Assembly (NCBI RefSeq): GCF_036924645.1 | Contig: NZ_JAZHRX010000001.1 | Coordinates: 1,550,001 to 1,614,000 of the forward strand | Source of the DNA: Bradyrhizobium sp. AZCC 2176 | Lineage (GTDB): Bacteria > Pseudomonadota > Alphaproteobacteria > Rhizobiales > Xanthobacteraceae | Direction of reading: 5' to 3' | Length of the DNA: 64,000 nucleotides | In this document: one piece after another, positions 803 through 26,565 of the stretch | Position numbering within the stretch: position 1 is the stretch's first letter | Layout: each line of letters opens with the position of its first letter | Program-made: the position numbers and the translations under genes | Notes under the pieces: model-generated | What the model saw: the letters and a program-made list of their open reading frames with translations, nothing else | What the model was told of the DNA's origin: nothing | Databases searched by the model: none

Positions 803-1203
803 TTCGCCCAACCCTCATTGCGCAATACGCATCGGAAGGTTGCACATAGATATATTTAAGAAAATTCGACTACATGCACTAGACATTCGGCGGTGCCTGC
901 TTAGGCCATCTGGCTTAGACCCAAAAGGTGGAAAAATTGCGTGTGGTCAGCCTTCATGCTGTCGATGATCTCTGGTTGGGCATTCCGGGGCATCTCTGGC
1001 TGAAATTTTGAGCGCAACGGAGATGTGCCCAATCGCGGTTTTGGGACCACGCGCTTCGATCATCTTAACCGTTGCGGCTCTTGCCGGATCATGCCGCGCC
1101 GGCGCCGCGATCGCCTTCATCTCTTCAGCAATGCCATTTTGGCGATACCAGCTTCTGTTCTGCCGCTCAGCTGCCGAAGCGAAATCCAGTCAACGACTGT
1201 AGC
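803..1203. other. intergenic, no supported gene
   Basis: About 400 bases between the Fnr-type gene and the end of the response-regulator gene. Both neighbours read leftward, so this holds the promoter of the Fnr-type gene. Short open frames exist but none has a family signature. I see no clear operator or terminator. Confidence 0.4.
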
Positions 1204-2977: not shown

Positions 2978-4036
2978 TCAATAGTTTGCCGCGGCGGGAA
3001 GCTGTTCCTCGATCGGCGTCCACAGAAGTCGTGGATCGAGCTGCTCCGTATGTCGGAGGTGACGCAATTCAGACAAGCGTGTGAACGGCGCGGAGTTGAA
3101 CATCGCCTCATCGAGCTGAATCCGCTGGAAAACCGTCCTCAATTGCAACGCTCCCCTCTCCGCGCTCCACTGACATTTGAACTTCGGCAGTCGCTCCTTG
3201 ATCTTCGCGAACGATACCCGATAGCTGCGGTTGTCCGGACCGCTTGGGCCATATGTAACCGCGCAGCCTGGAAACGTGTTACGGACGATTTCCGCAATCT
3301 CGCGCACAGTGTAGTTTTGTGTTTCGGTGCCGACGTTGAATGCTTCGCTGCATACGGCCTCTCTCGGGGCTTCGAGCGCGCACAGGATCGCCTGGCAAAT
3401 GTCGTCGACGTGGACCAGTGGACGGCATGGTGACCCGTCGCTCATCACGCGAACCATACCCGTCGTAAACGCAAACCCCGCCAGATTGTTGAGGACAAGG
3501 TCAAAGCGCTGCCGCGGCGACGCTCCGAACGCAGTCGCGTTGCGTAGGAAGACCGGCGTGAAGCGTGTGTCCGCCATTGAGGTCAGTTCGCGCTCGACCA
3601 GCACCTTGCAGTGCGCATAGGCGGTCTGCGGATCGACCGTAGAGGTTTCGGATTTTAGTTCGGAGCCGGCCGCTCCATAGATACTGCAGGACGAGGCGTA
3701 CACAAACCGGGCAACGCCGGCGGCTTTGCATTTTTTTGCAAACTCGACTGACCCACGATGATTGATTTCCATTGTAATTTCGGGATCGTTTTCTCCCAGG
3801 GGGTCGTTCGAAAGCTCGGCGAGATGAACTACCGCGTCCAGTCCCGCGAGTTCCGGCTGCGATATTTGACGGACGTCTTTGGAGATGACCATTGGCCGGG
3901 TACGGCCATCATCAAACAACCAACCGCGCCTATAGAGCCCGGTATCGATGCCCGTTGCCTCATGACCACGATCGAGCAACTTGGGACCCAGGACTGCGCC
4001 GATATAACCGTCAGCTCCCGTATAAAGAACGCGCAT
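2978..4036 (-). CDS. NAD-dependent epimerase/dehydratase (extended SDR)
   Basis: 352-residue nucleotide-sugar-modifying enzyme. The Rossmann motif G7-A-D-G10-Y-I-G13 binds NAD(P), the catalytic pair is Y140-x-x-x-K144, and Ser/Thr-rich strand A-S-S-C-S-I-Y-G lies at about 114-121. It follows rfbF by 21 bases on the same strand, so both are probably one operon and it may act on a CDP-sugar or on a related EPS precursor; the exact substrate cannot be read from sequence. The ATG has GGAA about 8 bases upstream. Confidence 0.88.
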   Translation of the reverse strand: MRVLYTGADGYIGAVLGPKLLDRGHEATGIDTGLYRRGWLFDDGRTRPMVISKDVRQISQPELAGLDAVVHLAELSNDPLGENDPEITMEINHRGSVEFAKKCKAAGVARFVYASSCSIYGAAGSELKSETSTVDPQTAYAHCKVLVERELTSMADTRFTPVFLRNATAFGASPRQRFDLVLNNLAGFAFTTGMVRVMSDGSPCRPLVHVDDICQAILCALEAPREAVCSEAFNVGTETQNYTVREIAEIVRNTFPGCAVTYGPSGPDNRSYRVSFAKIKERLPKFKCQWSAERGALQLRTVFQRIQLDEAMFNSAPFTRLSELRHLRHTEQLDPRLLWTPIEEQLPAAANY

Positions 4037-4057: not shown

Positions 4058-4894
4058 CTAAGCAGCCGTCAGAGGTTGGGGAGCATGGGAATTGTCTTTC
4101 GGAGAGATCGCTGGTTCGTTGTCCCATACGCGCCAGGGTGGCTTTCCGCTGTCCCACTGCTCCTGCAGGACCGTTTTGTCCCGAAGCGTGTCCATGTTCT
4201 GCCAGTAACCGTGATGCCGATAGACCGCCAATTGATCTCGCTCACTCAACCGATTGAGCGGCTCGTTCTCCCAACTCGTGCTATCATCATCGATGAGATC
4301 GAGCGCCTCTGGTTCCACAACGAAGAAGCCGCCATTGATCACCTGTCCGTCCCGCGCATCCTTTTCGCGGAAGCGGGAGGCCCGCGGGCGATCGGAAGAC
4401 AGGTTGATCGCGCCGAAGCGGCCTGGTAGCTGGACGGCTGTGACCGTCGCAAGCGCGCCTTGCAGATGATGAAAACTGATCAGCTCTCGGATGTTAACAT
4501 CGCTCACCCCGTCGCCATAGGTGAGGCAAAACGTCGAGTTCCCAAGATAGTCCCTAACCCGCTTGATCCTTCCGCCGGTCATCGTCTTTTCGCCGGTATC
4601 AACCAGCGTGACCTTCCAAGGCTCGGCTCCGTTTCGGTGAGTCTCAATCCGGTTGCGTTGGAGATCGACCGTAAAGTCGCCTTGGTGAGCCATGTAATCA
4701 AGAAAGTAGTCTTTGATGATCGCGCCCTTGTAACCGCAGCAAATAACGAATTCGTTGAGACCGTGATGTGAATAGAGCCGCATAATGTGCCAGAGGATCG
4801 GCCGGCCGCCGATCTCAACCAATGGCTTCGGGACTACAGACGTATGTTCGCTAAGCCGCGTTCCATAGCCTCCGGCAAGAATGACTACCTTCAT
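4058..4894 (-). CDS. rfbF: glucose-1-phosphate cytidylyltransferase
   Basis: 278-residue nucleotidyltransferase making CDP-glucose from CTP and glucose-1-phosphate. The N-terminus carries the pyrophosphorylase signature L-A-G-G-Y-G-T-R-L with K23 of the VPKP motif; Y-G-D-G-V-S-D (126-132) supplies metal-binding D128 and D132. The ATG at 4894 is fixed by AGGAG 8 bases upstream, although the frame stays open for another 128 codons. An FNR-type box lies 100 bases upstream (4994-5007). CDP-glucose would feed a 4,6-dehydratase; the only such gene seen nearby (10179-11189) is broken. Confidence 0.93.
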   Translation of the reverse strand: MKVVILAGGYGTRLSEHTSVVPKPLVEIGGRPILWHIMRLYSHHGLNEFVICCGYKGAIIKDYFLDYMAHQGDFTVDLQRNRIETHRNGAEPWKVTLVDTGEKTMTGGRIKRVRDYLGNSTFCLTYGDGVSDVNIRELISFHHLQGALATVTAVQLPGRFGAINLSSDRPRASRFREKDARDGQVINGGFFVVEPEALDLIDDDSTSWENEPLNRLSERDQLAVYRHHGYWQNMDTLRDKTVLQEQWDSGKPPWRVWDNEPAISPKDNSHAPQPLTAA

Positions 4895-4993
4895 CCGGTT
4901 CTCCTGCCTGTTCGTTGTTGGTTTGGCGTTGACCCGGATTGCTGCTGGCCGACGCTTCGGAGGAAGGTCTAGGCGAAGCCGCGAAAAACCGAC

Positions 4994-5007
4994 TTGATAA
5001 CCGTCAA
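4994..5007. promoter_or_regulatory. FNR/FixK-type box 1
   Basis: TTGATAACCGTCAA, followed by CTC. It lies 100 bases upstream of the rfbF start. Half-sites are TTGAT and GTCAA, spacer 4. Confidence 0.65.
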
Positions 5008-5430
5008 CTCCAAGCCCAGTGGCCCGACGTGTCGAGCCCTTGATCTTCAACCGTGGACAAATCGGCTTGCCGCTCTTCATTGCGCTCGCGTTCCCGACTG
5101 CCAAAAGAACGGCAGGAGTAAGCTCGCCGTTTCGGCATGTACAAGTAACGGAACCGAAAGGCTCGAACGGAGCCAATGCCGGCGAGACCTGCGGCGGTCT
5201 TGACCAGAAAATCAGCCAAATGAGCGTGACGCTGGAGAACCTCAGTTTGGCCGAGTTCGCATAAACCCACCGCGCCAACCACAGCAGGGGCAGCAGAAGC
5301 GAGCGGTGCCGTTCTCCACGAATCTGGTATCTGTGCGACTCTTTTTGGGTTGAGATCTTCCGTGAAGACCGGGAATTGGCGGCAGACTACCGAAGTTTAA
5401 CCTCGCGATTGGGAGCGGCGAGAGGGGAAG

Positions 5431-5444
5431 TTGACAACCGTCAA
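5431..5444. promoter_or_regulatory. FNR/FixK-type box 2
   Basis: TTGACAACCGTCAA, followed by CTC: perfect half-sites TTGAC/GTCAA with spacer 4. It lies 217 bases upstream of the glycosyltransferase start at 5661. Confidence 0.65.
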
Positions 5445-5660
5445 CTCGGGCGCGCGCGAAGTTCGCATTACTTGCACACGTGGCGCCTTGAATGACGCTG
5501 TCCGTCATCCAGACTTCGCACCTCGGAGGATTGACAGTGGAATGGAGAATGGTCGTGCAAGTCAGCAGGTCTAGCTACGATCACATACTCACTGGTAATC
5601 TGCCGATCATTTGGCGCCGGCGGGGATTAATGTTGCATTGCGTGCGGCATTCCCTGACCC

Positions 5661-6692
5661 ATGGGTGATGCAATGACCGATTCAGCCCGGGCCGACCCCT
5701 CCTATCCGTTCATCACGATCGCCATTCCGACGTTTAACCGGGCGGCGCTCTTGAAGGGGTGCGTCGCTGCAGCGCTCTCGCAAACCTATCGGCATTTTGA
5801 AGTCGTCGTGTCGAACAACGCCTCGCCGGACGATACCAGAAACGTCCTGAGCCGATTCAGCGACGCCAGATTGCGCGTCATCAATCAGGACGCGAATATC
5901 GGCATGATCCCGAACTGGAACGCTTGCCTTGCGAATGCGAAAGGCGACTACATCGTCTTTCTGTCCGACGACGACAGGATCGCGCCAGAGATGCTCAGGC
6001 GATGCGCTCACCTCATCAGGCAGCAGCCGCAACTTTCGACCGTCATTGCGCTCAGCAACATTCATGCAGCCTCGCTCGGACGAACGAAGCCAGCGCACGC
6101 CAGCCGATTCCACGACACCGGCATCTGGGACGGCACCGAGATCCTGATGGACTACTTGACCGATCAGATCACGGTGACGATGTGCAGCGTCTTGATGCGG
6201 ACCGAACTCTTGCGCGCGCACGGCGGTCTCCCGCTCAACCCGGGGAACACCGCCGATGTCGCCGCCTGGGCGCCGCTGCTGTTGCTCGGCAAGTCGGGCT
6301 TAGTCAACGAGGCCTGCGCGACGTACACATGTCACCACGATTCCGCGACGGCACGATCGGGCGTCGAACAGCTTCTGCACGATGGACGGAAGGTGCGCGA
6401 CCTCATCGCGCACGCGGCGGAGATCCACGTCACTGACCCGCAGCAGCGCAAGGCGATCCAGATCGAGGCCCAGCGCCATTTCGCGCGCCGAGGGCTTATC
6501 GTCTTGTCCGACTTTCGCAGGGGCGGCGGTGAGGTTCAGGTGCTGTTGAACGTCCTGTGGCGGTTCCGCCACGACTTGCACAGTGCCAATTTGAAGGCCA
6601 TCTTGCGCTCTACCGCCGTTGCCTTTTGTCCGCACCCGCTCGCCGCGCGGCTGCGCCAGTTCAGGTATAGTATATCGGAGCGCATAGCCTGA
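5661..6692 (+). CDS. family-2 glycosyltransferase
   Basis: 343-residue GT-A-fold enzyme that would transfer a sugar from a nucleotide donor onto the growing EPS repeat unit on the cytoplasmic face. I-A-I-P-T-F-N-R (about 20-27) is the donor-binding start of the family, S-N-N-A-S-P-D-D follows at 51-58, and S-D-D-D at 102-105 is the metal-binding motif. The N-terminus is uncertain: ATG at 5661 and at 5673 are both possible, neither with a strong ribosome-binding site. The 3' end of this gene is repeated in decayed form at about 7040-7215. Confidence 0.88.
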   Translation: MGDAMTDSARADPSYPFITIAIPTFNRAALLKGCVAAALSQTYRHFEVVVSNNASPDDTRNVLSRFSDARLRVINQDANIGMIPNWNACLANAKGDYIVFLSDDDRIAPEMLRRCAHLIRQQPQLSTVIALSNIHAASLGRTKPAHASRFHDTGIWDGTEILMDYLTDQITVTMCSVLMRTELLRAHGGLPLNPGNTADVAAWAPLLLLGKSGLVNEACATYTCHHDSATARSGVEQLLHDGRKVRDLIAHAAEIHVTDPQQRKAIQIEAQRHFARRGLIVLSDFRRGGGEVQVLLNVLWRFRHDLHSANLKAILRSTAVAFCPHPLAARLRQFRYSISERIA

Positions 6693-7039
6693 CGACGCAT
6701 CGCCCCTGCGGGCGTACCGCCCCCGCACGGGGCGCATGCGTAGAGCTGCGATTGCATGGTTGATCTTACGAGTTCATATTCAATTTCGTGCCGGCTGAAC
6801 AGCGTGGTCAGCGGCGGCGCATGATCCTTCTAGACGGATTTCAGCGCGTCGCCACCGAGCTGATTACCGGCCCGCTTCTGCGGGCCGCCCGGCAGATTAC
6901 CGGGTAGGCGTCGACCTCGCCGATGGCTGTGGCGACCCGAAGTCAGGGCCTGTGTGACGTTCATGCCCAGCGGTACCGAACTGTCGGAACGGGACCGGTT
7001 CGCATGCGCAGTTTGTATTTGATCTACGACGAAGTACGC

Positions 7040-7215
7040 CCGTAGCTTTGAGAGGCCGGATTGCTCAACGGCGGCGGACTTGGGGCGCGGTTGAACGTCT
7101 GATACTAGTTCCGCCTCGACCTGTGCGGCGTCAGTACGGCGGTCCTGCGCTTCATGGCGGTCATCTTGTTCCGCAAACGCTCGCCGCCCAGCTGCGCCAG
7201 CATCCGTTCCGCTTC
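7040..7215 (+). pseudogene. degenerate copy of the glycosyltransferase 3' end
   Basis: Aligns by eye with 6520-6665 of the upstream glycosyltransferase gene, with indels that destroy the frame. It is a remnant of a tandem duplication. Confidence 0.5.
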
Positions 7216-7230
7216 TGACCCTTGCTCTTA

Positions 7231-7244
7231 TTGATAACCATCAA
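7231..7244. promoter_or_regulatory. FNR/FixK-type box 3
   Basis: TTGATAACCATCAA, then CTC: the textbook FNR palindrome TTGAT-N4-ATCAA. Both half-sites changed together relative to the TTGAC/GTCAA boxes. It lies 146 bases upstream of the flippase start. Confidence 0.7.
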
Positions 7245-7389
7245 CTCGCCCGCAAGCCGTATCCGTATAGCTTCAGTTGCGGGAGCGATTGCATGGTCTT
7301 CGGCTCATACGAGTTCATCTTCAATCTGTCACTAACTGAACAGGGTGGACGGTTCGGAGGCGTAATCGCACGACGAGATTGGAACATGC

Positions 7390-8688
7390 ATGCGCTTCGC
7401 TCACTCTGATTCGTCGACGCCCGCTTCGGTTAGCAAGCTCCTCGTCCTTTTGATGACCATGGCCATGCGGGCCAGCGTAATGGGTTCAAGGTTTGCCCTT
7501 GCCATCTTCATTGCACGCTATCTCGATTTATCATCACTGGGCGTATACGGGCTCGCCACCGGCGCGATCGCAATTCTGCCGGTGGCGGTCAATCTCGGGA
7601 TGAACCACCTGCTGATGCGCGATGCGGTCACTGCCTCCACCGCTGAGTTGACCTATAGCTTGCGCCACTATTGGACCTTCGTAGCGACGACTTACATCAT
7701 CCTGCTGACGCTTTCTGTTTTGCTCACGATTTTGTTCGAAACCCCCGCTCTATGGATCCTTATCGTCGCCGTCATGTGGTTTGAGCATGTCGGCAACGAT
7801 GTTTTCTATCTTCTCTCCAGCATAAAGCACCACCTTTCGGCGAATACGAACGCCTTCCTTCGCGGCGCGGCATGGATTCTCGTTTATGTCCCGCTCGCCA
7901 TCTGGGAGCCAAACCTCAGAACGCTTCAGCACCTATTCGGTTTCTGGCTGGTGGGAGGGGTGCTCTCGTTTGTGCTTTTCGTCTGCATGAGCTGGTCGTG
8001 GCCGTGGAGGGCATCCCTTACCCTCCCATTCAAGCTGTCCATGATTACAACGACTGCCCGGCAATCCTTTCATCTTTGCGTCAGCGACGTAAGCTTTTTT
8101 GCGAGCCAGTACCTCGATCGCTACCTTGTAACATTGTTTCTAGGGATAAAAGCCGCTGGCATTTACTTTCTTTTCTGGACTGTGGCGAGCGCGGCGGGCA
8201 ACTTCCTCGCATTGGTCGTCCAGCAGCAGCAGCGCCCTCACCTCATCCACGCTCATAGGGTCGGAGGGTTGTCCGCGCACTGTCAGCTCGCCTGGCGTTT
8301 TATGCAGACAACGGCCTTGACCACCGCGGCGCTCAGCATTGCGGTTGGTTTTGCTTTCCAAATTTGCTCGCCCTGGCTGGGTCAGCCCGCACTTGCTGAC
8401 CATTTGCCAGCGTTCTGGTTGATAGTTGCCGGAATGGCCGTCCGCTGCTTGGCGGATTTTGCGGCGATGGGCCTGTTTACTGCAAACCGCGATCGCATCA
8501 TGGCTCTGACCAACGTAGTATCGGTAGGTGTATTGGCCATTGCCCAGATATTACTCCTGCCGTTAGCGGGACTTTACGGTGCTGGTGGCGCGATCCTGAT
8601 CACGTTTCTCGGAGCAATGCTTTGGCGTTACCGACTGTTGTTCGGTTTCTCACTCGCGAGCCCCGAGCCGCGGCAAGTCGGAGCCTAG
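7390..8688 (+). CDS. polysaccharide flippase (Wzx-type)
   Basis: 432-residue integral membrane protein with about 12 hydrophobic segments spread along its length and few soluble stretches, matching the MVF/PST oligosaccharide flippase family in size and layout. It would move undecaprenyl-linked repeat units across the inner membrane. The N-terminal helix carries R-A-S-V-M-G-S-R-F-A-L-A, and a conserved-looking S-L-G-V-Y-G-L follows the first helix. It sits between two glycosyltransferases and is preceded by an FNR-type box. The assignment to Wzx rests on topology and context rather than a catalytic motif. Confidence 0.85.
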   Translation: MRFAHSDSSTPASVSKLLVLLMTMAMRASVMGSRFALAIFIARYLDLSSLGVYGLATGAIAILPVAVNLGMNHLLMRDAVTASTAELTYSLRHYWTFVATTYIILLTLSVLLTILFETPALWILIVAVMWFEHVGNDVFYLLSSIKHHLSANTNAFLRGAAWILVYVPLAIWEPNLRTLQHLFGFWLVGGVLSFVLFVCMSWSWPWRASLTLPFKLSMITTTARQSFHLCVSDVSFFASQYLDRYLVTLFLGIKAAGIYFLFWTVASAAGNFLALVVQQQQRPHLIHAHRVGGLSAHCQLAWRFMQTTALTTAALSIAVGFAFQICSPWLGQPALADHLPAFWLIVAGMAVRCLADFAAMGLFTANRDRIMALTNVVSVGVLAIAQILLLPLAGLYGAGGAILITFLGAMLWRYRLLFGFSLASPEPRQVGA

Positions 8689-8750
8689 TGGGGGAGGTTA
8701 CCGGCGATCCGTTCTACCTCGAGCTCGCCACAAACAAGTGAAATGGCGTC

Positions 8751-9683
8751 ATGAAGATACTCAGCATTTGTTGCGTTCGGGACGAGGATGACATTGTTGG
8801 GGAGACGCTGGAGGATGCTCTAGGCTGGAGCGACAGAATATTCGTGTTTGACAATGGCAGCGTCGATGGAACGTGGGAGACGGTACAAGACGTTGCGAGA
8901 AGCAATTCGAAGATCGAGATCGTCGGCCACGATGACCGCACTTTCACCGACGAGCTGCTCGGGGAAATATTCGAATCCTATAGGAGCGTAGCGTCTCCTG
9001 GAGACTGGTGGTGCAGACTCGACTCTGACGAAATATATATTGATGACCCTGCGCGCTTTCTTGCGGGCGTTCCCGACAAATACGGCCTTGTGCTCTCCGC
9101 TTCATTTAACTTCTATTTCACTGACATTGATCTTCGGAGCTATGAACAGAGCCCGTCGGAATGGCTCGCGCGACCAGTTCGCGAAAGGCTCAGGTTCTAT
9201 CAAAACAACTGGAGCGAGCCCCGATTTGTCCGCCATCGGAACGACCTCCTTTGGGCCGGCCTGGTTTGGCCCGACAACCGCGGCCGGACGTTTCCTTCCC
9301 GGATTCGGCTCAAGCACTTTCCGTACCGATCCCCAGCGCAAATAGCCAGCCGACTTGCGTTACGCCAGAGGCAACCGGCACTGTTCAAACATGAGGCCAA
9401 TCGATCCCTTGCGGTGCCAAAATTCATGCGGCCGGATTGGTCGGACCAATATCTCAAGACGGCCGCGTTTGAAGCAGCTTCCTGGCGAGATCGAGTGAGG
9501 AAAGCTGATGAATGCGATGTAGATCTTGGAGATGGTGCTCTTATCACTCGCAACGAGCTGATGCCGCCGCTCCCGTCGCCAGCCGTCGACCTGGTTAAAG
9601 CCAGCTTGCGGGAAACTCATATTGGGCGAGCCATATTGTCACCTATTATAAAATTGCGTCGAAACCAACAAAGTCGCCAGTGA
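8751..9683 (+). CDS. family-2-like glycosyltransferase
   Basis: 310-residue cytosolic glycosyltransferase. The N-terminus I-L-S-I-C-C-V-R-D-E-D-D and F-D-N-G-S-V-D-G (33-40) are typical of the Glyco_tranf_2_4 group; R-L-D-S-D-E (89-94) is the DxD metal site. It starts 62 bases after the flippase on the same strand, so both are probably co-transcribed. Acceptor and donor sugars are unknown. Confidence 0.87.
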   Translation: MKILSICCVRDEDDIVGETLEDALGWSDRIFVFDNGSVDGTWETVQDVARSNSKIEIVGHDDRTFTDELLGEIFESYRSVASPGDWWCRLDSDEIYIDDPARFLAGVPDKYGLVLSASFNFYFTDIDLRSYEQSPSEWLARPVRERLRFYQNNWSEPRFVRHRNDLLWAGLVWPDNRGRTFPSRIRLKHFPYRSPAQIASRLALRQRQPALFKHEANRSLAVPKFMRPDWSDQYLKTAAFEAASWRDRVRKADECDVDLGDGALITRNELMPPLPSPAVDLVKASLRETHIGRAILSPIIKLRRNQQSRQ

Positions 9684-10178
9684 TCAAAAGGTCAGAGAGC
9701 TCCCGAGGAGACGTCCGCACTTCGCTCGCCCGCGCACACCCAACAGCCGAGCCGCGCCATCATCGTGGAGTCTTTCGGCGCCATCAAGCGCGAGCCGGCT
9801 TGTAGAGCTGGGGCTGGCCTAACGGCAGTGACGCCCTTTTTGGCGATCCTGTTAGTTGTTGTTTGCTAGGCCTCACGTGTTTCTTCTTCCCGCCCGTCTC
9901 ATTCCACGCCGTAAAGGCCACCGTTTTCAAACTCCTGTTGTGGACCAAACTTGACGATCCTCAAAAACGCCAAGCGTGACCCGGGCTCAACTGCGCCCCC
10001 ACGCAAGCAGGACTCACCGCGTGGCCTCTAAGCTTTATAGGCCCCTCAGCCTGGTGCAACCTGGCGGCGCTCCGGTGGTGTTTACCCTGATAATAGAACC
10101 GACTGCAGAAGTTGCGTAAATTTCCAACGCCCGATGCAAGACGCGCACTTCCTGTCCATTTGAAAGCGTCGAGGGAGT
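9684..10178. other. intergenic, degraded
   Basis: About 500 bases with no supported gene. A weak FNR-like palindrome, TTGACGATCCTCAA, lies at 9951-9964. Low coding character and several stop-dense frames suggest decayed sequence. Confidence 0.4.
9951..9964. promoter_or_regulatory. degenerate FNR-like box
   Basis: TTGACGATCCTCAA keeps only the TTGA-N6-TCAA core. It is 215 bases upstream of the broken dehydratase gene. Possibly chance. Confidence 0.25.
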
Positions 10179-11189
10179 ATGCAAATGAGTATGTTCTGGC
10201 AAGACAAGTCGGTTTTGGTGACTGGCGCCACTGGTTTTCTGGGCGGCTGGCTTATTCATCATCTGCTTGAACACGGTGCCAACGTCACGGCGCTCGTGCG
10301 GCGCAATAGACCGGACTCTCAGTTGTTCCTTTCTGGGCTTGCCCAGCGGGCTAAGCTTATTAACGGCAATGTATGGGACAGGGAACTGCTCGAGCACACC
10401 CTCAATCACTATGACATCGACGTGATCTTTCATACCGCCATGGCAAGTGGACGAGTGCAGGCAACACTCGCTGATCCGATTGGATGTCTGCGCTCGACCG
10501 TCGAGAGCACATGGCATCTGCTCGACATAATCCGGCAACATCGTCCGGAGTGAGCAATGGTCGTGTCCTCATCCGACAACGCTTACGGCGCCCAACAACT
10601 GCCCTACCGCGAGACTCAACCGCTTATGCCTCGGCATCCTCAGGAGGTAGCCAAAGCCTCGCAGGATATGCTGACCCAAAGCTTCGGCAAGATCTATGGT
10701 TTGAATGTTGCGGTAACACGCTGCGGAAATTTTTTCAGCCCCTACGATTTCAATTTTGCCCGCATTATTCCATATGTGGCAAAATGCTGTGCCTTTGGAG
10801 TACAACCGGAACTACGTTCCGACGGGCGGTTCGTGCGAGATTTTCTGGCTGTCGAAGAGGCCGCGCATGCGCACCTCATGCTGGCGGTGCAGCTTTCAAG
10901 CGGGCCGGAACTGCGGGGTGAGGTTTTCAATTTCTCTCATGAGGTTCGAATGTCAGTCATCGACCTCGTTGACAACATTCTTGAAATCGCACGGTCCAAC
11001 CAAACGCCTACGATCGTCAACACCGTCACCCACGAGATACCATCTATGTCGCTGTCTTGCGACAAGGCCCGGAAGATCCTGGGTTGGGAGCCTCAACGGA
11101 GCTTTGAAAGCAAACTAGCTGATACTGTGAACTGGTATTTGCAATGGTTCCGCGCGGCCGGGCGTGGATGTCAAGCAGGTGCGAGTTGA
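10179..11189 (+). pseudogene. CDP-glucose 4,6-dehydratase-like SDR, interrupted by in-frame TGA
   Basis: Two open segments (10179-10553 and 10557-11189) are in the same frame and are separated only by a TGA at 10551-10553, inside R-P-E-stop-A-M-V-V-S-S-S-D-N-A-Y-G. Together they give a full-length SDR of about 336 residues: V-T-G-A-T-G-F-L-G-G binds NAD, and T-R-C-G-N-F is a family motif. The expected Y-x-x-x-K is H-P-Q-E-V-A-K here, with Gln in place of the catalytic Tyr. CGA (Arg) to TGA is a one-base change. The double loss argues for a real pseudogene rather than a sequencing error. Confidence 0.75.
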
Positions 11190-11374
11190 TCCGGCCCATG
11201 ACCGCCTGGGTGAGAAAATGCAGGCGATGTGCTTGACGAATATGATCCAATAGTGTGCCCTGTTCACGATCGCCTCGACTGGAAGCCACTGCAGCCAACG
11301 AAGCGACAATGCTGCCAACAACTAGATACTGGCGGGACTGAACGTCACAACGGCTTGCAGCCTTTGACCGGAGG

Positions 11375-12100
11375 TCAAAGAGACTTGCTGCCATCGGCAT
11401 AATCGGTTCGCCTGAATACGCAATCGACTTCGAGCAGGGATACCGGATCCTCCGAATAGTAAGTCACCGGGCGCATCTGGCTTAACGTAAATCCGGCTTC
11501 CCGCATGAAGCGCAGCGCCTCATCGAAGTTCCAGGTCTCCTGATAGAGATGGACAAGAGGCAATTCCAGTTGCACGCCAAGCAGACGCGGAACGGAGTTC
11601 CTGCCGCCCTTGAGTACATTCTGCTCGAAACCTTGCGTATCGACCTTCAAGAACACACGGTTGTCGGTGAACTCCGAGAATATGGTGTCAAGCGTCACAA
11701 TCTGAACCGTGTCAATACGGATCACATCGGTCTCATAGATACTGTTTCGGCCAATGTCTGTCTGATCGGCAATCGAACTCATTGCCGTGTTCTTGCTGAC
11801 GTTGATTTCTATGGTGCCGGTGAAATCGCCAAGTGCCATGTTTCGGCAATGCCAATTTTTGTCCGATGCGCAATTCTGTTGAAGCCGACCGAAGACCTCA
11901 GCGACGGGTTCGAAGGATACGATCTTCCCCTTGTAGCCGCGCAACCTGAGTTCTTGTGCGAACTGGCCCTCGTTGGCGCCAACGTCCAGAACGAGATTAA
12001 CAGAACGAGATTTGAGGAACTGCATCAGGTCCGGGTGCCGGTGACGAATTTCGTAGCCAGTCGACCTGACAATGTACTTTAGCCGCTCTTTCACTGTCAT
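11375..12100 (-). CDS. FkbM-family methyltransferase
   Basis: 241-residue SAM-dependent methyltransferase. D39-V-G-A-N-E-G45 is the SAM-binding motif I, S-F-E-P-V follows as motif II, and V-D-T-Q-G-F-E fits the FkbM signature. Members often O-methylate sugars of surface glycans. Its start overlaps the stop of the chain-length gene by 4 bases (12097-12100), so the two are translationally coupled. Confidence 0.9.
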   Translation of the reverse strand: MTVKERLKYIVRSTGYEIRHRHPDLMQFLKSRSVNLVLDVGANEGQFAQELRLRGYKGKIVSFEPVAEVFGRLQQNCASDKNWHCRNMALGDFTGTIEINVSKNTAMSSIADQTDIGRNSIYETDVIRIDTVQIVTLDTIFSEFTDNRVFLKVDTQGFEQNVLKGGRNSVPRLLGVQLELPLVHLYQETWNFDEALRFMREAGFTLSQMRPVTYYSEDPVSLLEVDCVFRRTDYADGSKSL

Positions 12101-13623
12101 ATCGCTGCTCTAGTGTTTCCCTCACCCAACGTACCTGCGGTCGACATCTCGGCGGATTGGGGATCCTTCGATCCTCCCCGTTTTCGCCGGGCGACCAAAA
12201 GGTCCACGAGGTCATCGGTCCCGACGTCAAGTCCGGCGTTCCGGTAGGCGTGGGCGTGCGTCGCCCCTCTCGCGAGCTCCGGCCCAACGATGAGCGCAAA
12301 GCCAAGCAAAATGCCACCGGCTAACGCCAAGCCAATGAGATGCGGGAACTGCGGAAACACAGGCCGCGTTGGAGTAACCGCCTTCTGAACGACTCTTAGG
12401 CTTGAGAGTTGGCTCTTCTTGGCGACCTCGGAACTGATCTCTTCCTCGAGGATCCGAGTTGCATAGTGCGCGGCGGCTGCCGATGCTGTCGTTAGGTTAC
12501 GCTTCAACCTGCCATATTCTGCCTCGTTCGCAGAGAGCAACGCCAGCTCCTTGTTCACCTGATCGAGCTCCGTGCCGAGCCCCTTCAACAGCTCCGTAGA
12601 CCCATTGAGATCAGCGTTGACCTTCATGAGTGCAGCCATGTTGTCCTGATAGACCTTCACCAGAAGCAAAGGAGGAATTTCGTCAGCCTGTTCCTGCTCC
12701 TTCGCGGCGCTTTCCGCAGCTTTTCGGGGATCCTGCCCTCCGAGCGTCTTCACCATCCGGCTTACAGTTTTCGACTGCGTAACCGGCCGCAGCACCTGCA
12801 ATTGCTCCACGATCGACTGTTTCTGCCCCTTTTTGTCTTCGACTGTTGCGCGCGTCGTGGAGATGGACGTGGCCAGGTCATTCGCCCGCTTGAGCAGAAG
12901 CGCCCGCTGCTCGTCAACCGAATAGATCGATGCGTTGACGGAGAAGCTCTTTAGGTTAGCAGCCGCCGCCTGGGCCTCTTCCTCAAGGCGTGTCGTCTGT
13001 TGCTGGAAAAATTCTTGCGCTCCCGGCATTTGAACCTCAGTACCCTGAACAGCGACCAGTGCGTTTGCAAGCTCGTTCAGGTAACTTGCCGCGATCGCCG
13101 CATCCCTGTGACGGAAGGTTACTCTCAACAGGTCTGATCTGCCTTCTTGCTTCGCAGCGACACGGTCCCGCAAGCCGAGAATGCGCGCCTCATTGCGCTC
13201 TATTTCGTCCTCCGGCTCAAGCCCTTGCGTTGCTGGCTCGCCAACGAAAGCGTGCGCAAGGTTGATTTCCTTCGCCCACGCCCAAAACCTGTTCATGAGC
13301 GTCGGGTTCGTATTAGCGGATAATCGATCGTACCCAACCGCCCTTCCCGCCTCTAGAACTACCTGATCGATTTTAGCAATGCGCGACAGCGACTCCATCC
13401 GGCTTTGAAGATCAAGGCCTTCCCCAAGAGGCGCGCTTGAATTGCCTGAACGCTCCTTAATGCCCTGCCCCGCGCGCAAGATAGTATACGCCTCGTAGCG
13501 GTCCCCGACCGCTGCGTAATATAGGAAGGCCACGCCGGACGTCAGAAGCAGGCACAGATACAGGATCCATTGGCGGCGCCAGAAAAAACGGAAGGAGAAT
13601 ATTGCACTTATGCTGCGTTCCAC
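12097..13623 (-). CDS. Wzz/GumC-type chain-length determinant (no kinase domain)
   Basis: 508-residue inner-membrane protein: short cytoplasmic N-terminus, membrane helix at about 17-37, a long periplasmic coiled-coil-rich part (about 180-390), and a second helix near 425-447 after a P-x-x-P-xx-P stretch (T-P-T-R-P-V-F-P-Q-F-P). This is the layout of polysaccharide co-polymerases that set EPS chain length. The C-terminus (about 60 residues) has no BY-kinase domain. FNR-type box 4 lies 64 bases upstream of the start and FkbM overlaps its end. Confidence 0.88.
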   Translation of the reverse strand: MERSISAIFSFRFFWRRQWILYLCLLLTSGVAFLYYAAVGDRYEAYTILRAGQGIKERSGNSSAPLGEGLDLQSRMESLSRIAKIDQVVLEAGRAVGYDRLSANTNPTLMNRFWAWAKEINLAHAFVGEPATQGLEPEDEIERNEARILGLRDRVAAKQEGRSDLLRVTFRHRDAAIAASYLNELANALVAVQGTEVQMPGAQEFFQQQTTRLEEEAQAAAANLKSFSVNASIYSVDEQRALLLKRANDLATSISTTRATVEDKKGQKQSIVEQLQVLRPVTQSKTVSRMVKTLGGQDPRKAAESAAKEQEQADEIPPLLLVKVYQDNMAALMKVNADLNGSTELLKGLGTELDQVNKELALLSANEAEYGRLKRNLTTASAAAAHYATRILEEEISSEVAKKSQLSSLRVVQKAVTPTRPVFPQFPHLIGLALAGGILLGFALIVGPELARGATHAHAYRNAGLDVGTDDLVDLLVARRKRGGSKDPQSAEMSTAGTLGEGNTRAAI

Positions 13624-13686
13624 TGTGGACTCGCTTGTTCCTGTACCTACCCGCTATAGCCTCTACGCGAAGCGCCCGGAACGATA

Positions 13687-13700
13687 TTGACAACCGTCAA
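13687..13700. promoter_or_regulatory. FNR/FixK-type box 4
   Basis: TTGACAACCGTCAA, followed by CTCGG exactly as at box 2. It lies between divergent genes: 64 bases before the chain-length gene and 128 before the polymerase gene. Confidence 0.7.
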
Positions 13701-13827
13701 CTCGGATTTTGACCGTGCATCTATATGCTTGTCACGGCTGCTACTCTTGGCACCAGATCTACCAGGTTACTGAGATATCCCGGCCTAGGCAGGAACCTGC
13801 GACTACGAGAGGTGGGGTTACTTCGTT

Positions 13828-15051
13828 GTGCAAAGTCTGACTGTAAGCAGAGAAAGACCGCCATACATCCTTCCCGCGTCGGTGGCGATCACGAACCAGT
13901 TTTTCCTGGTGACCTGCCTGGGCCTCGTGTTGCTCAATTTTCTGACGTTCGCTTATCACCTTACTGGCTCGACTCTATTCAACGCGCTTAGCAACGCCGT
14001 GAGCCTGTTGCTTATTTCGTGTTCAGTCTATGTTGCGCTTGTAGGCAGGGAAGAAGCCGGTTTTTACAAGATCTTTTTGGTACTGGCCTGTGTTTTCGTC
14101 GGCGCGAGCTATTTGGCCAACTATGGGAGTTTCGAGATAGCAGATGCCCTGAAGTTCTTGTCGCTCTACACATTCTATATAGCTGGCCGAAGCGCGCCGG
14201 GGCATTGGCGGCCAGCTGAGAAGTGGTGCATCTACGCGCTCGCCGCGTTGCCTTTGATCTTCAAGTTGGCCGGCGACACAAAAGTCTACGTGGGCGCCGA
14301 GTTTCCTGACGTGTTCGCCTACTTTCCCAATACAAATACCGCGGCGCTGTATTTTGCTGCTTTGTGCTTTTCCCTATCGCATTGGTTCGGAAACAAGATG
14401 CTGGTAGTGCAGTTCATCAATGCCGCGGTGATGAATAGAGTCGGCGCAGCATTGGCCACCATTCTTGCCATCGTCATGTGGTCTTTCTTTCCACTGAGAC
14501 CACAAGTATTAGTCGCTTTCTTTATAGGGGGGATAGCTGGCTGTATTGCCTACGCTTTTGGAGCAATGGATCGGTTGCTGACGGGTCTTGATAGCATGGC
14601 TTTGATTTGGAGCTTGAACCCCGGCACGGTCGCACGCATGACCTACAAGCAACTGATCGACTTGACGGGCACGACCGACCTGTCAGCATTTTTTCGCATC
14701 ATCCATTGGACAAACATATTTGAATACTATTCGACGCAAGGCCTCGGCGTGATCTTGTTTGGTTACGGCGCAGGTCAGAGCGGCATCATAGCGGTCATGC
14801 CCATGCCGCCGCACAACGATTACCTTCGTGTCCTGGCGGAATATGGATTGCTCAACTTCCTGGTATTTGCCTTTTTTGTCGTCAGCATCCTGCTTTCGCT
14901 GAAGCTGCAGGCGGCGAAGATTCTCTTCACTGTGCTGCTCATATATTTCTTCTCCGAAAATCTGCTGGACAACTTTACATCGATGGCACTGTTTTTCTCG
15001 TTTGCTGGCAGGCTTACATCCCAGCAGTCGTCTGGCAGCAGTCACGCGTAG
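13828..15051 (+). CDS. O-antigen ligase/polymerase-like membrane protein (Wzy-type)
   Basis: 407-residue polytopic protein with about 10 hydrophobic segments and one larger loop at about 245-330. That loop contains G-L-G-V-I-L-F-G-Y-G-A-G-Q-S-G and P-P-H-N-D-Y-L-R-V-L-A-E-Y-G. The PHNxYL...EYG pattern near the last loop is typical of Wzy/WaaL-type EPS polymerases and ligases. GTG start with GAGAGGTGGGG upstream. Divergent from the chain-length gene and sharing its box region. Confidence 0.88.
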   Translation: MQSLTVSRERPPYILPASVAITNQFFLVTCLGLVLLNFLTFAYHLTGSTLFNALSNAVSLLLISCSVYVALVGREEAGFYKIFLVLACVFVGASYLANYGSFEIADALKFLSLYTFYIAGRSAPGHWRPAEKWCIYALAALPLIFKLAGDTKVYVGAEFPDVFAYFPNTNTAALYFAALCFSLSHWFGNKMLVVQFINAAVMNRVGAALATILAIVMWSFFPLRPQVLVAFFIGGIAGCIAYAFGAMDRLLTGLDSMALIWSLNPGTVARMTYKQLIDLTGTTDLSAFFRIIHWTNIFEYYSTQGLGVILFGYGAGQSGIIAVMPMPPHNDYLRVLAEYGLLNFLVFAFFVVSILLSLKLQAAKILFTVLLIYFFSENLLDNFTSMALFFSFAGRLTSQQSSGSSHA

Positions 15052-15089
15052 CTGGCGTATCGCCGGCTGGTTGAACACGGGATCAACCG

Positions 15090-16409
15090 ATGGACTTCTC
15101 GATTTCCGAAGCAATCAGACAGAACACGCTTGGACGAAGCGAAGGATTTCCCGCCGGAGTGCCTAAGAGCTACGATTGGTACAAAGGCTGGAACGACGAT
15201 GGGTTGCATACGCCGCCAGCAAATTTCACCGCCCTCACGGGTTGGGGCCAAGTCTATCAGAAGGTGGGGGCTCCCGCGTCCTCGAATGCAGCTGCAGATG
15301 TCGAAGTTGCCAACGCGAAGACCTATGTCCGTCTCAGGGAAACGGGCCAATGGGTCTTGGCCCAAGATCAGTCAAGAACCCCAATAGTGGGGGGGCATTT
15401 CGTCACTGACTTCGCTGGAAATGCAGGATACCCGATGGTCGTGACCCCTCTGGCGGGCGGGGGCACGTCTTTCAGTGCCCCTTCGGCCGGGCATAATGAT
15501 CATTTTTGGCACAAGGCGCGAGGCACCTACGCGGCTGGAACGGTCGACGCCGTCTATGTCCAGATGGATATGAGGGTTACGGATCCGAACTTGAAGCTGG
15601 TCGCCATGGTGGGCGCCGACTGGTGGCGCGACGCAGACGCCCCTTTTCTTGCAGACCACAGCAACAATCCGGGCATCGGCGGCAGCAACTGGATTGAACT
15701 TTCGACGCAATGGAGGACGATTGCCTACTACTCCCTGAGCACCGCGGAGTTTCAGAGCAATCTGCCGCCTCCGTTCCGCGGAACTGTCGACACGGCCCCG
15801 GTCACCAATCCGGACATCACGCCTCCCGCCGCGCCCACGATTGCCTCGTTCACGCCGGACACCGGCACCATTGGCGACCAGATCACGGGCGCGAGCGTTC
15901 TGACATTGTCTGGCACGGCAGAGGCCGCCAGCATCGTCAAGCTGTTCGATGGGGCAACGCAGATCGGTACGGCAAGTGCGAATTCGAGTGGCGCCTGGAG
16001 TACCGAGACCAGCCAATTGGCGGCGGGCACACACAACTTTACGGCGACGGCCACGGACGCGGCCGGCAACACCAGTTCGGCATCATCGCTGTTGAATGTA
16101 ATGGTGGACGCGGCGGGAGCATCCCCGCCGGCGGCGTCACCAAGGGCGACGCCGAGTGGCGAAAACCTCTTGGAGATGTTTGACGCAACGTCCGTGGGAG
16201 TAGACGAGTGGGCGGGCCTCACCGACAATGACGGATCCTATCGGACCCTGCAGACCGTTGCACGGCAGGGCCACAACCTATCCCTTGATGCGCGTTCCCT
16301 TCCTGGATTCACCGACACGACCACAACGATCGAGGCCTTGTCGAATGATTCGTTCATTTTGATCGCCTTGCTTTTCGCGACCATAGTCAAGATTGGTCGA
16401 AATAGCTGA
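15090..16409 (+). CDS. Ig-like-domain protein of a three-member EPS-linked family (truncated copy)
   Basis: 439 residues, no signal peptide. Residues 1-230 are a conserved domain shared with the proteins at 22346-24055 and 20911-21885 (S-E-G-F-P-A-G-V-P, Y-K-G-W-N-D-D-G-L-H-T-P-P, A-V-Y-V-Q-M-D-M-R, G-A-D-W-W-R-D). Residues about 240-335 form a bacterial Ig-like domain. The C-terminus after S-G-E-N-L-L is a scrambled, shortened version of the carbohydrate-binding-like domain in the 569-residue paralogue: several internal deletions and a shifted end. It starts 39 bases after the polymerase gene. The function is unknown; an extracellular polysaccharide-binding role is inferred. Confidence 0.8.
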   Translation: MDFSISEAIRQNTLGRSEGFPAGVPKSYDWYKGWNDDGLHTPPANFTALTGWGQVYQKVGAPASSNAAADVEVANAKTYVRLRETGQWVLAQDQSRTPIVGGHFVTDFAGNAGYPMVVTPLAGGGTSFSAPSAGHNDHFWHKARGTYAAGTVDAVYVQMDMRVTDPNLKLVAMVGADWWRDADAPFLADHSNNPGIGGSNWIELSTQWRTIAYYSLSTAEFQSNLPPPFRGTVDTAPVTNPDITPPAAPTIASFTPDTGTIGDQITGASVLTLSGTAEAASIVKLFDGATQIGTASANSSGAWSTETSQLAAGTHNFTATATDAAGNTSSASSLLNVMVDAAGASPPAASPRATPSGENLLEMFDATSVGVDEWAGLTDNDGSYRTLQTVARQGHNLSLDARSLPGFTDTTTTIEALSNDSFILIALLFATIVKIGRNS

Positions 16410-16410
16410 T

Positions 16411-16690
16411 CGACCGCAGGATGCGAGATCTTCTCAAGCCAAAGGGAACGTTGTTCCTGGAGTATCCCAACGCGTGGGGCTCTTCCAGATGTCCAAATCG
16501 ATCTTCATGCCCCGATTCGTCTACAGATCGCTGCGATCCGCCAATCATTGCTCAAAGGCTCACCTCATCGCCCCGCCGACTACGAATTTCCTACAAGCGT
16601 GTGGCGTGTGATGACAATCCTTCGCGAGCTGGGTTTTGAGAACATAAAATGCTATCCGCACACACGGCATATCCGACAATCAGTGAGCGC
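16411..16690 (+). pseudogene. methyltransferase-like remnant
   Basis: Pieces of frames give M-R-D-L-L-K-P-K-G-T-L-F-L-E-Y-P-N-A-W-G, close to the post-motif region of class-I methyltransferases (LKPGGxLFLxxPN), then after frame changes M-T-I-L-R-E-L-G-F-E-N-I-K-C-Y-P. No complete frame exists. Likely the tail of a decayed EPS methyltransferase gene. Confidence 0.4.
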
Positions 16691-17073
16691 AAGCATCGGA
16701 TTTACTGCTCGCTGAGCGGCTCCAAATACGCAAATATCACGACTATCATTATATGCTAAGCGCCGTGCGGGCCTGAAATACCCTACACCGGAGCGCTTCG
16801 AGAAAGCGGCACTTACCACGTTCAGCACGTGACTGGCGATCAACGTTCGCCCTCGGGCTGCAAGGGGCGCGCAATCTCCGGCCTGTATTTGTCGCGAGAT
16901 GGAACGTCAGGAATATCCTCCGTTACAGCGAGGAGAAACGACGCCTGATATCAGGGCTCTTGGAAGCGGAAATCTGGCTGCGCGCCTCGATCCAGCACCC
17001 GTGGCGGCCGCCTACAAGGCTTTTCGACCTGGCTTAGGAGAATGAAGGCCAATCATTCTAGCTTTGGTCGCAA

Positions 17074-17244
17074 CTAGTCGGTCCAACTGCGATCCCCACA
17101 CTCGCATTTGAACATATGGATGACATCCCCGTTTTCGGAATCTATGACTGTTCGGACTAGTTCTAGCTTTTTCTTGCAGAAACGACACCTTCGGTCGGAT
17201 GCATCTGGCAGATGTGCAATCGTCTTGGCCTTCAACAGATCCAT
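17074..17244 (-). CDS. 56-residue zinc-ribbon-like protein
   Basis: Small protein M-D-L-L-K-A-K-T-I-A-H-L-P-D-A-S... with C20-x-x-C23 and, about 25 residues later, K-C-E-C (C47, C49), consistent with a four-Cys zinc site. The ATG is well supported by GGAGGG 7 bases upstream. An FNR-type box (17420-17433) lies 176 bases upstream. I do not recognise a named family. Small zinc ribbons often act as nucleic-acid or protein-binding regulators, but no function can be assigned. Confidence 0.75.
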   Translation of the reverse strand: MDLLKAKTIAHLPDASDRRCRFCKKKLELVRTVIDSENGDVIHMFKCECGDRSWTD

Positions 17245-17419
17245 TGTTCACCCTCCGCGAGAGGCAATACAGATAGACCGTTGGGCGGTCGGGACACGGC
17301 CTCAGCACGGGAGAGCATCGAGCCGATATTATCGGCTAAAGCTGGGAGCTCTGTAGCCGAGCTTAGCTAGGTGCATGTGGCTGCCGGTCCCTAGGAAAAC
17401 ACCAAGTATCCAGCCTGTA

Positions 17420-17433
17420 TTGACGACCGTCAA
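17420..17433. promoter_or_regulatory. FNR/FixK-type box 5
   Basis: TTGACGACCGTCAA, followed by CTTACGG. Half-sites are perfect. It lies 176 bases upstream of the zinc-ribbon gene. Confidence 0.65.
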
Positions 17434-17660
17434 CTTACGGTGCCTAAACGAAGTTTCGCATCAGCTCCTGCGTTCGAACGGCAGAACGCAAGAACAGTTC
17501 GCTCTACTCGATCTTGCAGTATCTCATTACGGCTCTGGTGACTGGCCAGAATGAAGCGCGCCGGTTTGCTGATAGCCAGTGGCGGCATTGGCGACGAGTA
17601 GCATCCAGCCGGCGTAGCTGCGGCTGATGTGTGGCCGACGCTTCTCTGACGATTCAATTA

Positions 17661-17674
17661 TTGACGGCCGTCAA
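17661..17674. promoter_or_regulatory. FNR/FixK-type box 6 (perfect palindrome)
   Basis: TTGACGGCCGTCAA is symmetric over all 14 bases. It lies 127 bases upstream of the 84-residue protein gene. Confidence 0.7.
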
Positions 17675-17800: not shown

Positions 17801-18055
17801 TTGCAATCCGACGCTTACATCCTCGATAAGTATCGGCGGCGGGTTCTTGCCGGTCTGACGCCGGAGGAAACGAGTGAGTTCGAAATTCTAGACGCACAGC
17901 TTCCGTTCGATGGAAAGCCAGTCTCGACTCCCACCCCATCACCTCTTTCTCCAAAAGAGCAGCGATGGCTGGAACTGCACGAAAAGATGGAAACAGCTCG
18001 CGAGAATAATCTTGCGCGTGGATACTGGCGTTGTCTGACGAAGGTTGGCGGATGA
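17801..18055 (+). CDS. 84-residue hypothetical protein
   Basis: Charged, probably helical cytosolic protein (L-D-K-Y-R-R-R-V-L-A-G-L-T-P-E-E-T-S-E-F-E-I-L-D at the N-terminus; a second helical stretch P-K-E-Q-R-W-L-E-L-H-E-K-M after a Pro/Ser/Thr linker). Start TTG, chosen because AGAGGAG lies 9-15 bases upstream. FNR-type box 6 is 127 bases upstream. Family not recognised. Confidence 0.65.
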   Translation: MQSDAYILDKYRRRVLAGLTPEETSEFEILDAQLPFDGKPVSTPTPSPLSPKEQRWLELHEKMETARENNLARGYWRCLTKVGG

Positions 18056-18812: not shown

Positions 18813-19532
18813 GTGTCAGTAATTCTCGTGGTCGACGAACACAGCATCTATCGAAGTGGACTCAGGAAGGTCATAGAAACGCGTTTTCCGCATTTTCGTG
18901 TCGTTGAGGCGTCAAGGCTCCCCCACTCAGACATCAGCGAAGCTTTCAACTTGATTCTGATCGATTCCGGCAGCCTGAGCTACGGCACCATGGAGCTGCT
19001 AGCTGAATGGCATGAGGTGAGGCCGAAGGCACGTATTGCCGTTCTTTCTGGAGCCAAGAGCAGGGTCGAAGCACTGCACTATCTTTCAGTTGGCTTTCAC
19101 GGCTTTTTGCACAAGCTTCAGTCAGAGGAGGAGTTGCTTGACGCCATCCACGATTTGCTCTCGGGTCGCATTTACATTCCGATCTGGGTTGTCGAAGGCG
19201 ATGCGGACGACGATGATGACATTTCATTTCGCGAAGATGTTGAGCAGGAAACCCTAAAATTGACGCGCCGCCAGAATGAAGTCCTGACCCTGCTTGCTCG
19301 GGGGATGTCCAATAAGGAGATCGCGCGAGAACTAAATATTGCCGAAGGCACGAGCAAGATTCATACTGCCGCGCTACTGCGCGTCCTTGGCGCACGAAAT
19401 CGGACCGAAGCGGCTTTCAAGGCAGCGAAGATCGTAAGATCAAGAGGGCATGACAAGAGCCTCCAGAACGGGACCCCTGCAATCCACAGGTCGTGGCTTG
19501 ATTGGGGAAAAGCTCGCAAATTCTCCGCCTAA
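18813..19532 (+). CDS. NarL/LuxR-type response regulator (copy 2)
   Basis: 239-residue paralogue of the regulator at 1204-1944: the first seven residues differ at one position, and D8/E9, D51 (L-I-D-S-G-S), K101 and the LuxR HTH (L-T-R-R-Q-N-E-V-L) are collinear. GTG start with GAGGA upstream. An acidic linker (G-D-A-D-D-D-D-D) separates receiver and HTH. Transcribed outward from the EPS genes in mirror orientation to copy 1. No partner kinase is nearby. Confidence 0.9.
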   Translation: MSVILVVDEHSIYRSGLRKVIETRFPHFRVVEASRLPHSDISEAFNLILIDSGSLSYGTMELLAEWHEVRPKARIAVLSGAKSRVEALHYLSVGFHGFLHKLQSEEELLDAIHDLLSGRIYIPIWVVEGDADDDDDISFREDVEQETLKLTRRQNEVLTLLARGMSNKEIARELNIAEGTSKIHTAALLRVLGARNRTEAAFKAAKIVRSRGHDKSLQNGTPAIHRSWLDWGKARKFSA

Positions 19533-26402: not shown

Positions 26403-26565
26403 GGCCGCTTTCAGGCTTGTCGTGAACGATGAACACCATCTCCCCCACAACCGCGAATGCCTCCAACGGTGCGCAATTCTTATATTGACGAGCATCAAGT
26501 CAGAGGCGCCGCTCCCAGCGGAGTATCCAGCTCCGTGCTACTCGCAGAATAGGCGTCTTTTTACC

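Follow-up and report, generated by a model that had tools for sequence, protein, structure and literature searches.

Predicted private regulon of FNR/FixK-type boxes, with a proposed dedicated FixK-like regulator, in a polysaccharide and type I secretion gene cluster of Bradyrhizobium

Among described systems, the closest to the locus considered here is the FixLJ–FixK2 cascade of Bradyrhizobium diazoefficiens, in which FixLJ induces fixK2 and the FixK2 box reads TTG(A/C)-N6-(T/G)CAA (PMC9104804). Our subject is a set of FNR/FixK-type palindromes (hereafter boxes) and a gene for a CRP/FNR-family protein (146–811) in Bradyrhizobium sp. AZCC 2176. Both lie in a stretch of 64,000 nucleotides, bases 1550001–1614000 of the 7,146,351-base genome, which was analyzed as a whole and is called the window; positions are those of the window unless given as genome positions. 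We propose, with a probability of roughly 0.8, that this dedicated FixK-like protein would read the boxes of a polysaccharide and type I secretion cluster as its private regulon and activate transcription from them in the class II manner.

With FNR and FnrL the local protein shares the fold family, an E-x-x-(S/C)-R helix and, as predicted from its boxes, the TTGAY half-site and the class II geometry; unlike FNR it has no FNR-type Fe–S motif, and it scores 54.2 bits with the FnrL model against a cut-off of 300. The likeness to FixLJ–FixK2 lies in a FixK-type protein with an L-E-x-x-x-R helix, a NarL-type response regulator encoded nearby and a 14-bp palindrome. In contrast to FixK2, the local system would not be global and would serve polysaccharide and secretion genes, its regulator carries ETVCR and not ETVSR, and its boxes have a purine-first spacer whereas 11 of 14 FixK2 boxes read from a table in PMC9104804 are C-first. 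The neighboring response regulator, RR1, scores 102 bits with the NarL model and 23 bits with the FixJ model, and no kinase was found among the cluster proteins scanned. HcpR regulons come close through the predicted operator wyTTGACnnnnGTCAArw, TTGACnnnnGTCAA being known as a predicted HcpR operator (PMC1274295); the likeness is one of operators, and HcpR differs in controlling the hybrid cluster protein and redox genes. CRP/FNR-family regulons are a known kind. Of this regulator, its regulon and its operator subclass, no description was found in the open-licence PMC literature, searched at the level of abstracts and listings. The analysis yields a predicted cis-regulatory wiring for a polysaccharide and secretion cluster found in Bradyrhizobium, Rhodopseudomonas and Tardiphaga, and it singles out one regulator gene for the box regulon.

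Box palindromes in the genome and in relatives

Two patterns were used, a relaxed form, TTGAYNNNNRTCAA, that is TTGAY-N4-RTCAA, and a strict form, TTGAYRRCCRTCAA, which is the consensus of the initial annotation (a model's reading of the letters of this stretch) minus its trailing YT. With at most one mismatch, TTGAYNNNNRTCAA matches 18 times in the window against a mean of 4.51 after shuffling, and 0 of 100 shuffles reach 18; a chance origin of the window's box set is excluded. Genome-wide, the strict form occurs at nine places, eight of which lie inside 34 kb (genome 1533286–1567674; Poisson 3e-16), while the ninth, at 4295720, falls within an open reading frame (ORF) of 560 aa. The relaxed form occurs at 39 places, 12 of them within 43 kb (genome 1533286–1576485), where 0.24 would be expected. 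A random scatter over the genome, which the initial annotation had named as a refuting outcome, is not what the scan shows, and the view that the sites are restricted to the exopolysaccharide cluster holds for the strict form in this genome.

The six boxes listed at the outset (4994, 5431, 7231, 13687, 17420 and 17661) are all in place and, as had been said of their intergenic setting, none lies inside a homology-mapped gene. Homology mapping took the place of gene calling by codon usage, which, trained on long flanking ORFs, scored the cluster genes poorly and was retrained on cluster genes before being replaced. The set is larger than these six: where the initial annotation, reading by eye, had found no further full match in the window, 2404 and 26485 also match the relaxed form. 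Relaxed matches upstream of the window, at genome positions 1533286, 1536251, 1543392 and 1546179, carry the box cluster some 17 kb beyond it; that at 1543392, with spacer CTAG and overlapping a convergent 3′ end, is probably due to chance. Boxes 26485 and 1546179 are extragenic only if the genes there start downstream of the longest open frames. Box 7231 does change both half-sites together, and the spacer AACC and the trailing CTC do each recur in four boxes. This asymmetry had been taken as part of the site, but it does not follow gene direction, and across relatives (54 promoters, nine genomes) the site is a palindrome that runs slightly further and encloses a symmetric spacer of the form purine..pyrimidine. 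Among the relaxed matches of this genome, 11 of 12 sites inside the cluster have a purine as the first and a pyrimidine as the last spacer base, against 6 of 27 outside.

Of 265 genomes from the genus, 14 have a close orthologue of the CRP/FNR regulator (E 1e-35 or better), and the clusters of these CRP-plus genomes are all boxed, with 4–13 boxes each in the 30–80 kb fetched around the gene and 93 in total; eight control spacings over the same 14 stretches gave 24 sites together, or 3.0 each. The same genes stay boxed despite species-to-species differences in gene order: rfbF and GT4b in 14/14 clusters, wzz in 13 (the 14th stretch ends before wzz) and GT2 in 12. Three promoter alignments, built from at most ten representative genomes (with 9, 10 and 10 rows), have as their best-conserved 14-column block the box itself or a block overlapping it, a conservation that is partly built in because the alignments were cut around boxes. 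At least four strict matches are found in 12 of the 14 CRP-plus genomes and in 14 of the 251 CRP-minus genomes (Fisher 4e-12; both tallies counted by eye, forward and reverse matches summed, a fully palindromic site counting twice). Beyond the genus, the regulator gene occurs together with boxes in Rhodopseudomonas palustris JSC-3b, R. faecalis and Tardiphaga robiniae, the boxes standing before rfbF and before a C-methyltransferase gene; the spacer of one of the two Tardiphaga boxes is of a different type. For six distant relatives of the CRP protein from the same scan, no box was found in 14–21 kb.

Boxes 5431 and 13687 have all 14 bases in common, as copies of a dispersed repeat might be. 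The shared sequence, however, comprises the palindrome and a few flanking bases, with no longer repeat unit within 60 bases on each side, the control spacings are nearly empty, and orthologous promoters retain their boxes while the spacers differ. An origin of the boxes as a dispersed repeat or by chance has next to no probability.

The CRP/FNR protein and candidate readers of the boxes

The gene at 146–811 (minus strand) encodes a member of the CRP/FNR superfamily, with the Pfam domains cNMP_binding (PF00027) and HTH_Crp_2 (PF13545) above cut-off; the Fnr-type gene that had been placed at 146–802 is correct as counted from the ATG at 802, and extends to 811 when the upstream TTG start is taken. 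Its closest solved structure is that of FixK2 (4i2o, E 3e-15), with LETVSR where the local helix has LETVCR, and it scores 75.3 bits with the FixK equivalog model NF050806 of NCBIfam, under the cut-off of 300. The E-x-x-(S/C)-R recognition helix of the FNR/FixK class is invariant in nine orthologues. Among the 20 CRP-family helices read in the genome (the HTH_Crp_2 hits above cut-off out of 29, the nine below being left out), only that of the local protein has this form.

The proposed mechanism would run as follows. The 146–811 protein would bind as a dimer to TTGAY-R-N-N-Y-RTCAA, and boxes near −41 of many promoters in the 43-kb cluster of Wzx/Wzy/Wzz and type I secretion genes would serve class II activation of transcription, divergent pairs such as wzz/wzy being activated from one common box. 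RR1 would be the likely input to the CRP gene, as FixJ is to fixK2, and, RR1 and the CRP gene lying downstream of the boxed rfbF promoter, positive feedback may follow. The sequences show the boxes, their conservation, their co-occurrence with the regulator gene, the −10-like spacing and the recognition helix, from which binding, activation, the RR1 cascade and feedback are inferred. The initial annotation had likewise proposed a local regulon with sites of this type and had pointed to the Fnr-type gene nearby. Both the regulon and this gene as its most likely reader are supported by boxes and gene occurring together in 14/14 clusters and by the sole E-x-x-(S/C)-R helix among the 20 read.

Two other candidates for reading the boxes have to be considered. 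In the first place, the reader could be another FixK/FNR protein of the cell: the FixK2 consensus quoted above (PMC9104804) includes the box form, and one other protein of the genome (L133) has a D-T-L-S-R helix. Against this stand the restriction of E-x-x-(S/C)-R to the local protein among the 20 helices read, and the fact that ETVSR-type regulators are common in the sampled relatives although strict boxes are scarce or absent in most of these; we hold it to be highly improbable. Second, RR1 (or the second response regulator, RR2) could bind the boxes while the CRP protein does something else. An RR1 homologue lies at most 1.9 kb from the CRP gene in 14/14 clusters and so is found with the boxes no less regularly than the CRP gene; co-occurrence therefore cannot separate the two, and we dropped it as proof of CRP over RR1. 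The form of the box, however, is that of FNR/FixK sites, which the helix of the CRP protein matches, and elsewhere boxes of this class are accompanied by a second CRP with the same type of helix. Three genomes (G025, G050 and G052) have RR1 homologues (47–50% identity) with no CRP orthologue and no box in the 40 kb around, a soft test because these homologues are rather distant. Box recognition by a response regulator is very unlikely, and the FixK-like protein remains the preferred reader.

FNR senses oxygen with the help of an N-terminal cysteine motif that holds a [4Fe-4S] cluster. The only cysteines invariant across the nine aligned orthologues of the local regulator, 103, 114, 120 and 187, do not form that motif, and the oxygen- or redox-link first suggested for the regulon is left without support. 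Cysteine 187 sits within the recognition helix; since FixK2 is controlled by oxidation of C183, close to the DNA (PMC9104804), thiol control of DNA binding by the local regulator is conceivable by analogy.

Promoter geometry and response regulators

A TAnnnT element starts 20–24 nt past the box in 41 of 89 gene-oriented promoters, the other 5-nt bins holding 0–3 up to offset 74 and the last one (75–79) holding 7. These 89 were kept from 101 box–gene pairs by requiring a box-to-start distance of 30 to 330 nt, which removed, among others, the promoters of the C-methyltransferase gene, where the longest frames overlap the box. With a −10 element 20–24 nt past the box, the box would be centered near −41, the position of a class II activator, with support over the relatives that is weaker in the window's own genome; an Fnr site centered at −42 is termed class II (PMC5934665). 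Boxes so placed overlap the expected −35 position, as they would if the local protein bound them and mainly repressed transcription by covering the −35 region. If the −10 element is taken to start 21 nt past the box and the spacer to be 17 nt long, however, the −35 hexamer falls on AA plus the next four bases, unlike TTGACA, and the box promoters therefore look activator-dependent. Repression as the main mode is very unlikely, and we retain activation by the FixK-like protein.

Several observations do weigh against that activation model. Close relatives contribute many of the 89 promoters, and boxes shared by two genes were counted once per direction. For the 11 boxes scanned in the window genome, TA is found at 20–22 nt on 9 of 22 box sides and the full TAnnnT on only 2, and four of the boxes (genome 1533286, and 5431, 17420 and 26485) have neither. 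No box stands directly before the CRP gene. Two CRP-plus genomes are poor in strict matches, G105 with only 3 and G226 with only 2, although each has 6 relaxed boxes, and the presence of RR1 homologues in all clusters, discussed above, belongs here as well. Genome G173, which has part of the cluster and boxes without a CRP orthologue, was listed as a further counter-example and then dropped: it decides nothing, because the stretch that holds the CRP gene in relatives is flanked by contig ends on either side in this assembly.

As for single boxes, 4994–5007 (TTGATAACCGTCAA), in the rfbF promoter, has a minus-strand TAGACC 22 nt beyond, and 7231–7244 (TTGATAACCATCAA), in the flippase promoter, has TATAGC at 21 nt. 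Box 13687–13700 (TTGACAACCGTCAA) is common to the divergent genes wzz and wzy, with TAGAGG and TATATG 21 nt beyond, one per side. Box 17661–17674 (TTGACGGCCGTCAA) faces right, toward an 84-aa ORF (17801–18055) and then RR2, with TATTCT at 21 nt, and 2404–2417 (TTGACGCCTATCAA), absent from the initial list, faces RR1 from 460 bp away with TATCAA at 21 nt. TA is missing at 20–22 nt from box 5431–5444 (TTGACAACCGTCAA), 216 bp ahead of the glycosyltransferase gene 5661–6692 that is boxed in 12/14 clusters, from either side of 17420–17433 (TTGACGACCGTCAA), which has no clear target gene, and from 26485–26498 (TTGACGAGCATCAA), likewise absent from the initial list and 67 nt ahead of the ATG at 26566, in a position that the longest frame, starting at 26185, would include. 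A weak box with one mismatch, 21954–21967 (TTGACCAATCTCAA), is found 69 bp before the secreted-protein gene 20911–21885, and a homologous gene is boxed in four relatives.

RR1 (1204–1944, minus strand; Pfam Response_reg and GerE) and RR2 (18813–19532, plus strand; Pfam scan) are 55% identical response regulators of the NarL/FixJ type. In 13/14 clusters rfbF, RR1 and the CRP gene are co-directional and downstream of the boxed rfbF promoter, an opposite-strand gene standing between RR1 and the CRP gene in 2 of these 13 and none being mapped there in 11; positive feedback from that promoter is possible because the three genes point the same way. Ten of the 14 clusters have TTGACT upstream of the RR1 homologue and a TA-rich hexamer about 16–17 nt later, a sigma-70-like arrangement without a box that was not seen in the window genome. 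In these ten, however, RR1 also seems to be transcribed from its own ordinary promoter. The aligned upstream regions of the CRP and RR1 genes yielded no assignable RR1 site.

A second ETVCR-type regulator and the cluster genes

Of the 14 CRP-minus genomes with at least four strict matches, nine (G001, G085, G109, G119, G123, G139, G209, G253 and G259) carry a second CRP of ETVCR type and five (G048, G061, G106, G156 and G214) do not. The second CRP is absent from 14 zero-box genomes and three CRP-plus genomes that were checked. Its scan gave 13 matches, 12 of them as loci, and ETVCR is found in 12/12 loci read; 33 other CRP/FNR loci in relatives comprise 31 with ETVSR, one with ETVAR and one outside the search expression. 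The example from G001 resembles the window regulator in its ETVCR helix and in lying in a stretch with 30 TTGAY-N4-RTCAA sites (L049–L054, C102:35001–155000), but is only 28% identical to it, falls on a separate tree branch and has other genes around it, among them proteins that by their N-termini, judged by eye, we take to resemble DnaK, Lon and ClpB. We had considered this box-rich region as a copy of the window cluster and rejected the idea, since the two regions differ and the G001 one has a CRP of its own. In the tree the two ETVCR groups and the remainder each make up one side of a branch; one or two origins of ETVCR both fit, because the tree is unrooted.

As a lead, ETVCR-type regulators appear to go with purine-first boxes and FixK2-type (ETVSR) regulators mostly with C-first ones, the latter from the boxes tabulated in PMC9104804. 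An absolute spacer rule is contradicted by the G001 region, where 18 of 30 boxes have the purine..pyrimidine spacer. More tentatively, and at clearly less than even odds, the change from ETVSR to ETVCR, which puts Cys for Ser beside the DNA-reading Arg, might go with the shift from C-first to purine-first spacers and insulate private regulons (polysaccharide/secretion; stress island) from the FixK2 network, and the cysteine could make DNA binding redox-switchable. If true, such a recognition code would offer an explanation of how several FixK-type regulons can stay separate within one cell.

The cluster holds genes for Wzx-, Wzy- and Wzz-like proteins (assigned on weak Pfam matches), for glycosyltransferases, an undecaprenyl-phosphate glucose phosphotransferase and nucleotide-sugar enzymes. 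It also encodes a radical SAM/SPASM protein, an HlyB/HlyD type I secretion pair and Ig-domain proteins, besides its two response regulators and one CRP/FNR protein. On the minus strand lie an rfbG-like sugar epimerase gene (2978–4036; Pfam scan), the glucose-1-phosphate cytidylyltransferase gene rfbF (4058–4897; TIGR02623 above cut-off) and the gene of the Wzz-like chain-length protein (12097–13623; GNVR and Wzz, below cut-off). The plus strand carries genes for a family 2 glycosyltransferase (5661–6692; Pfam scan), the Wzx-like flippase (7390–8688; Polysacc_synt, below cut-off), a further glycosyltransferase (8751–9683; Pfam scan) and the Wzy-like polymerase (13828–15051; Wzy_C, below cut-off). 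Of two ORFs, 10179–10553 matches the first half of an epimerase family and 10557–11189 the second half of that family; they share a reading frame and are separated by a stop.

The products of 15090–16409, 20911–21885 and 22346–24055 are related proteins with a common N-terminal part of about 230 residues, for which no Pfam match was found; several matches occur in relatives too, and the cluster that holds these genes includes a type I secretion pair. Near the right end of the cluster there is a transposase ORF (24634–25320; DDE_Tnp_1_6), and beyond it a long ORF (26566–29475, 969 aa from that ATG) without a Pfam or NCBIfam match, the box 67 nt before its ATG being that at 26485. In one locus (L011:9763–11778) the HlyD-type adaptor has an N-terminal peptidase-C39-like domain, and the adjoining HlyB-type protein has one too.

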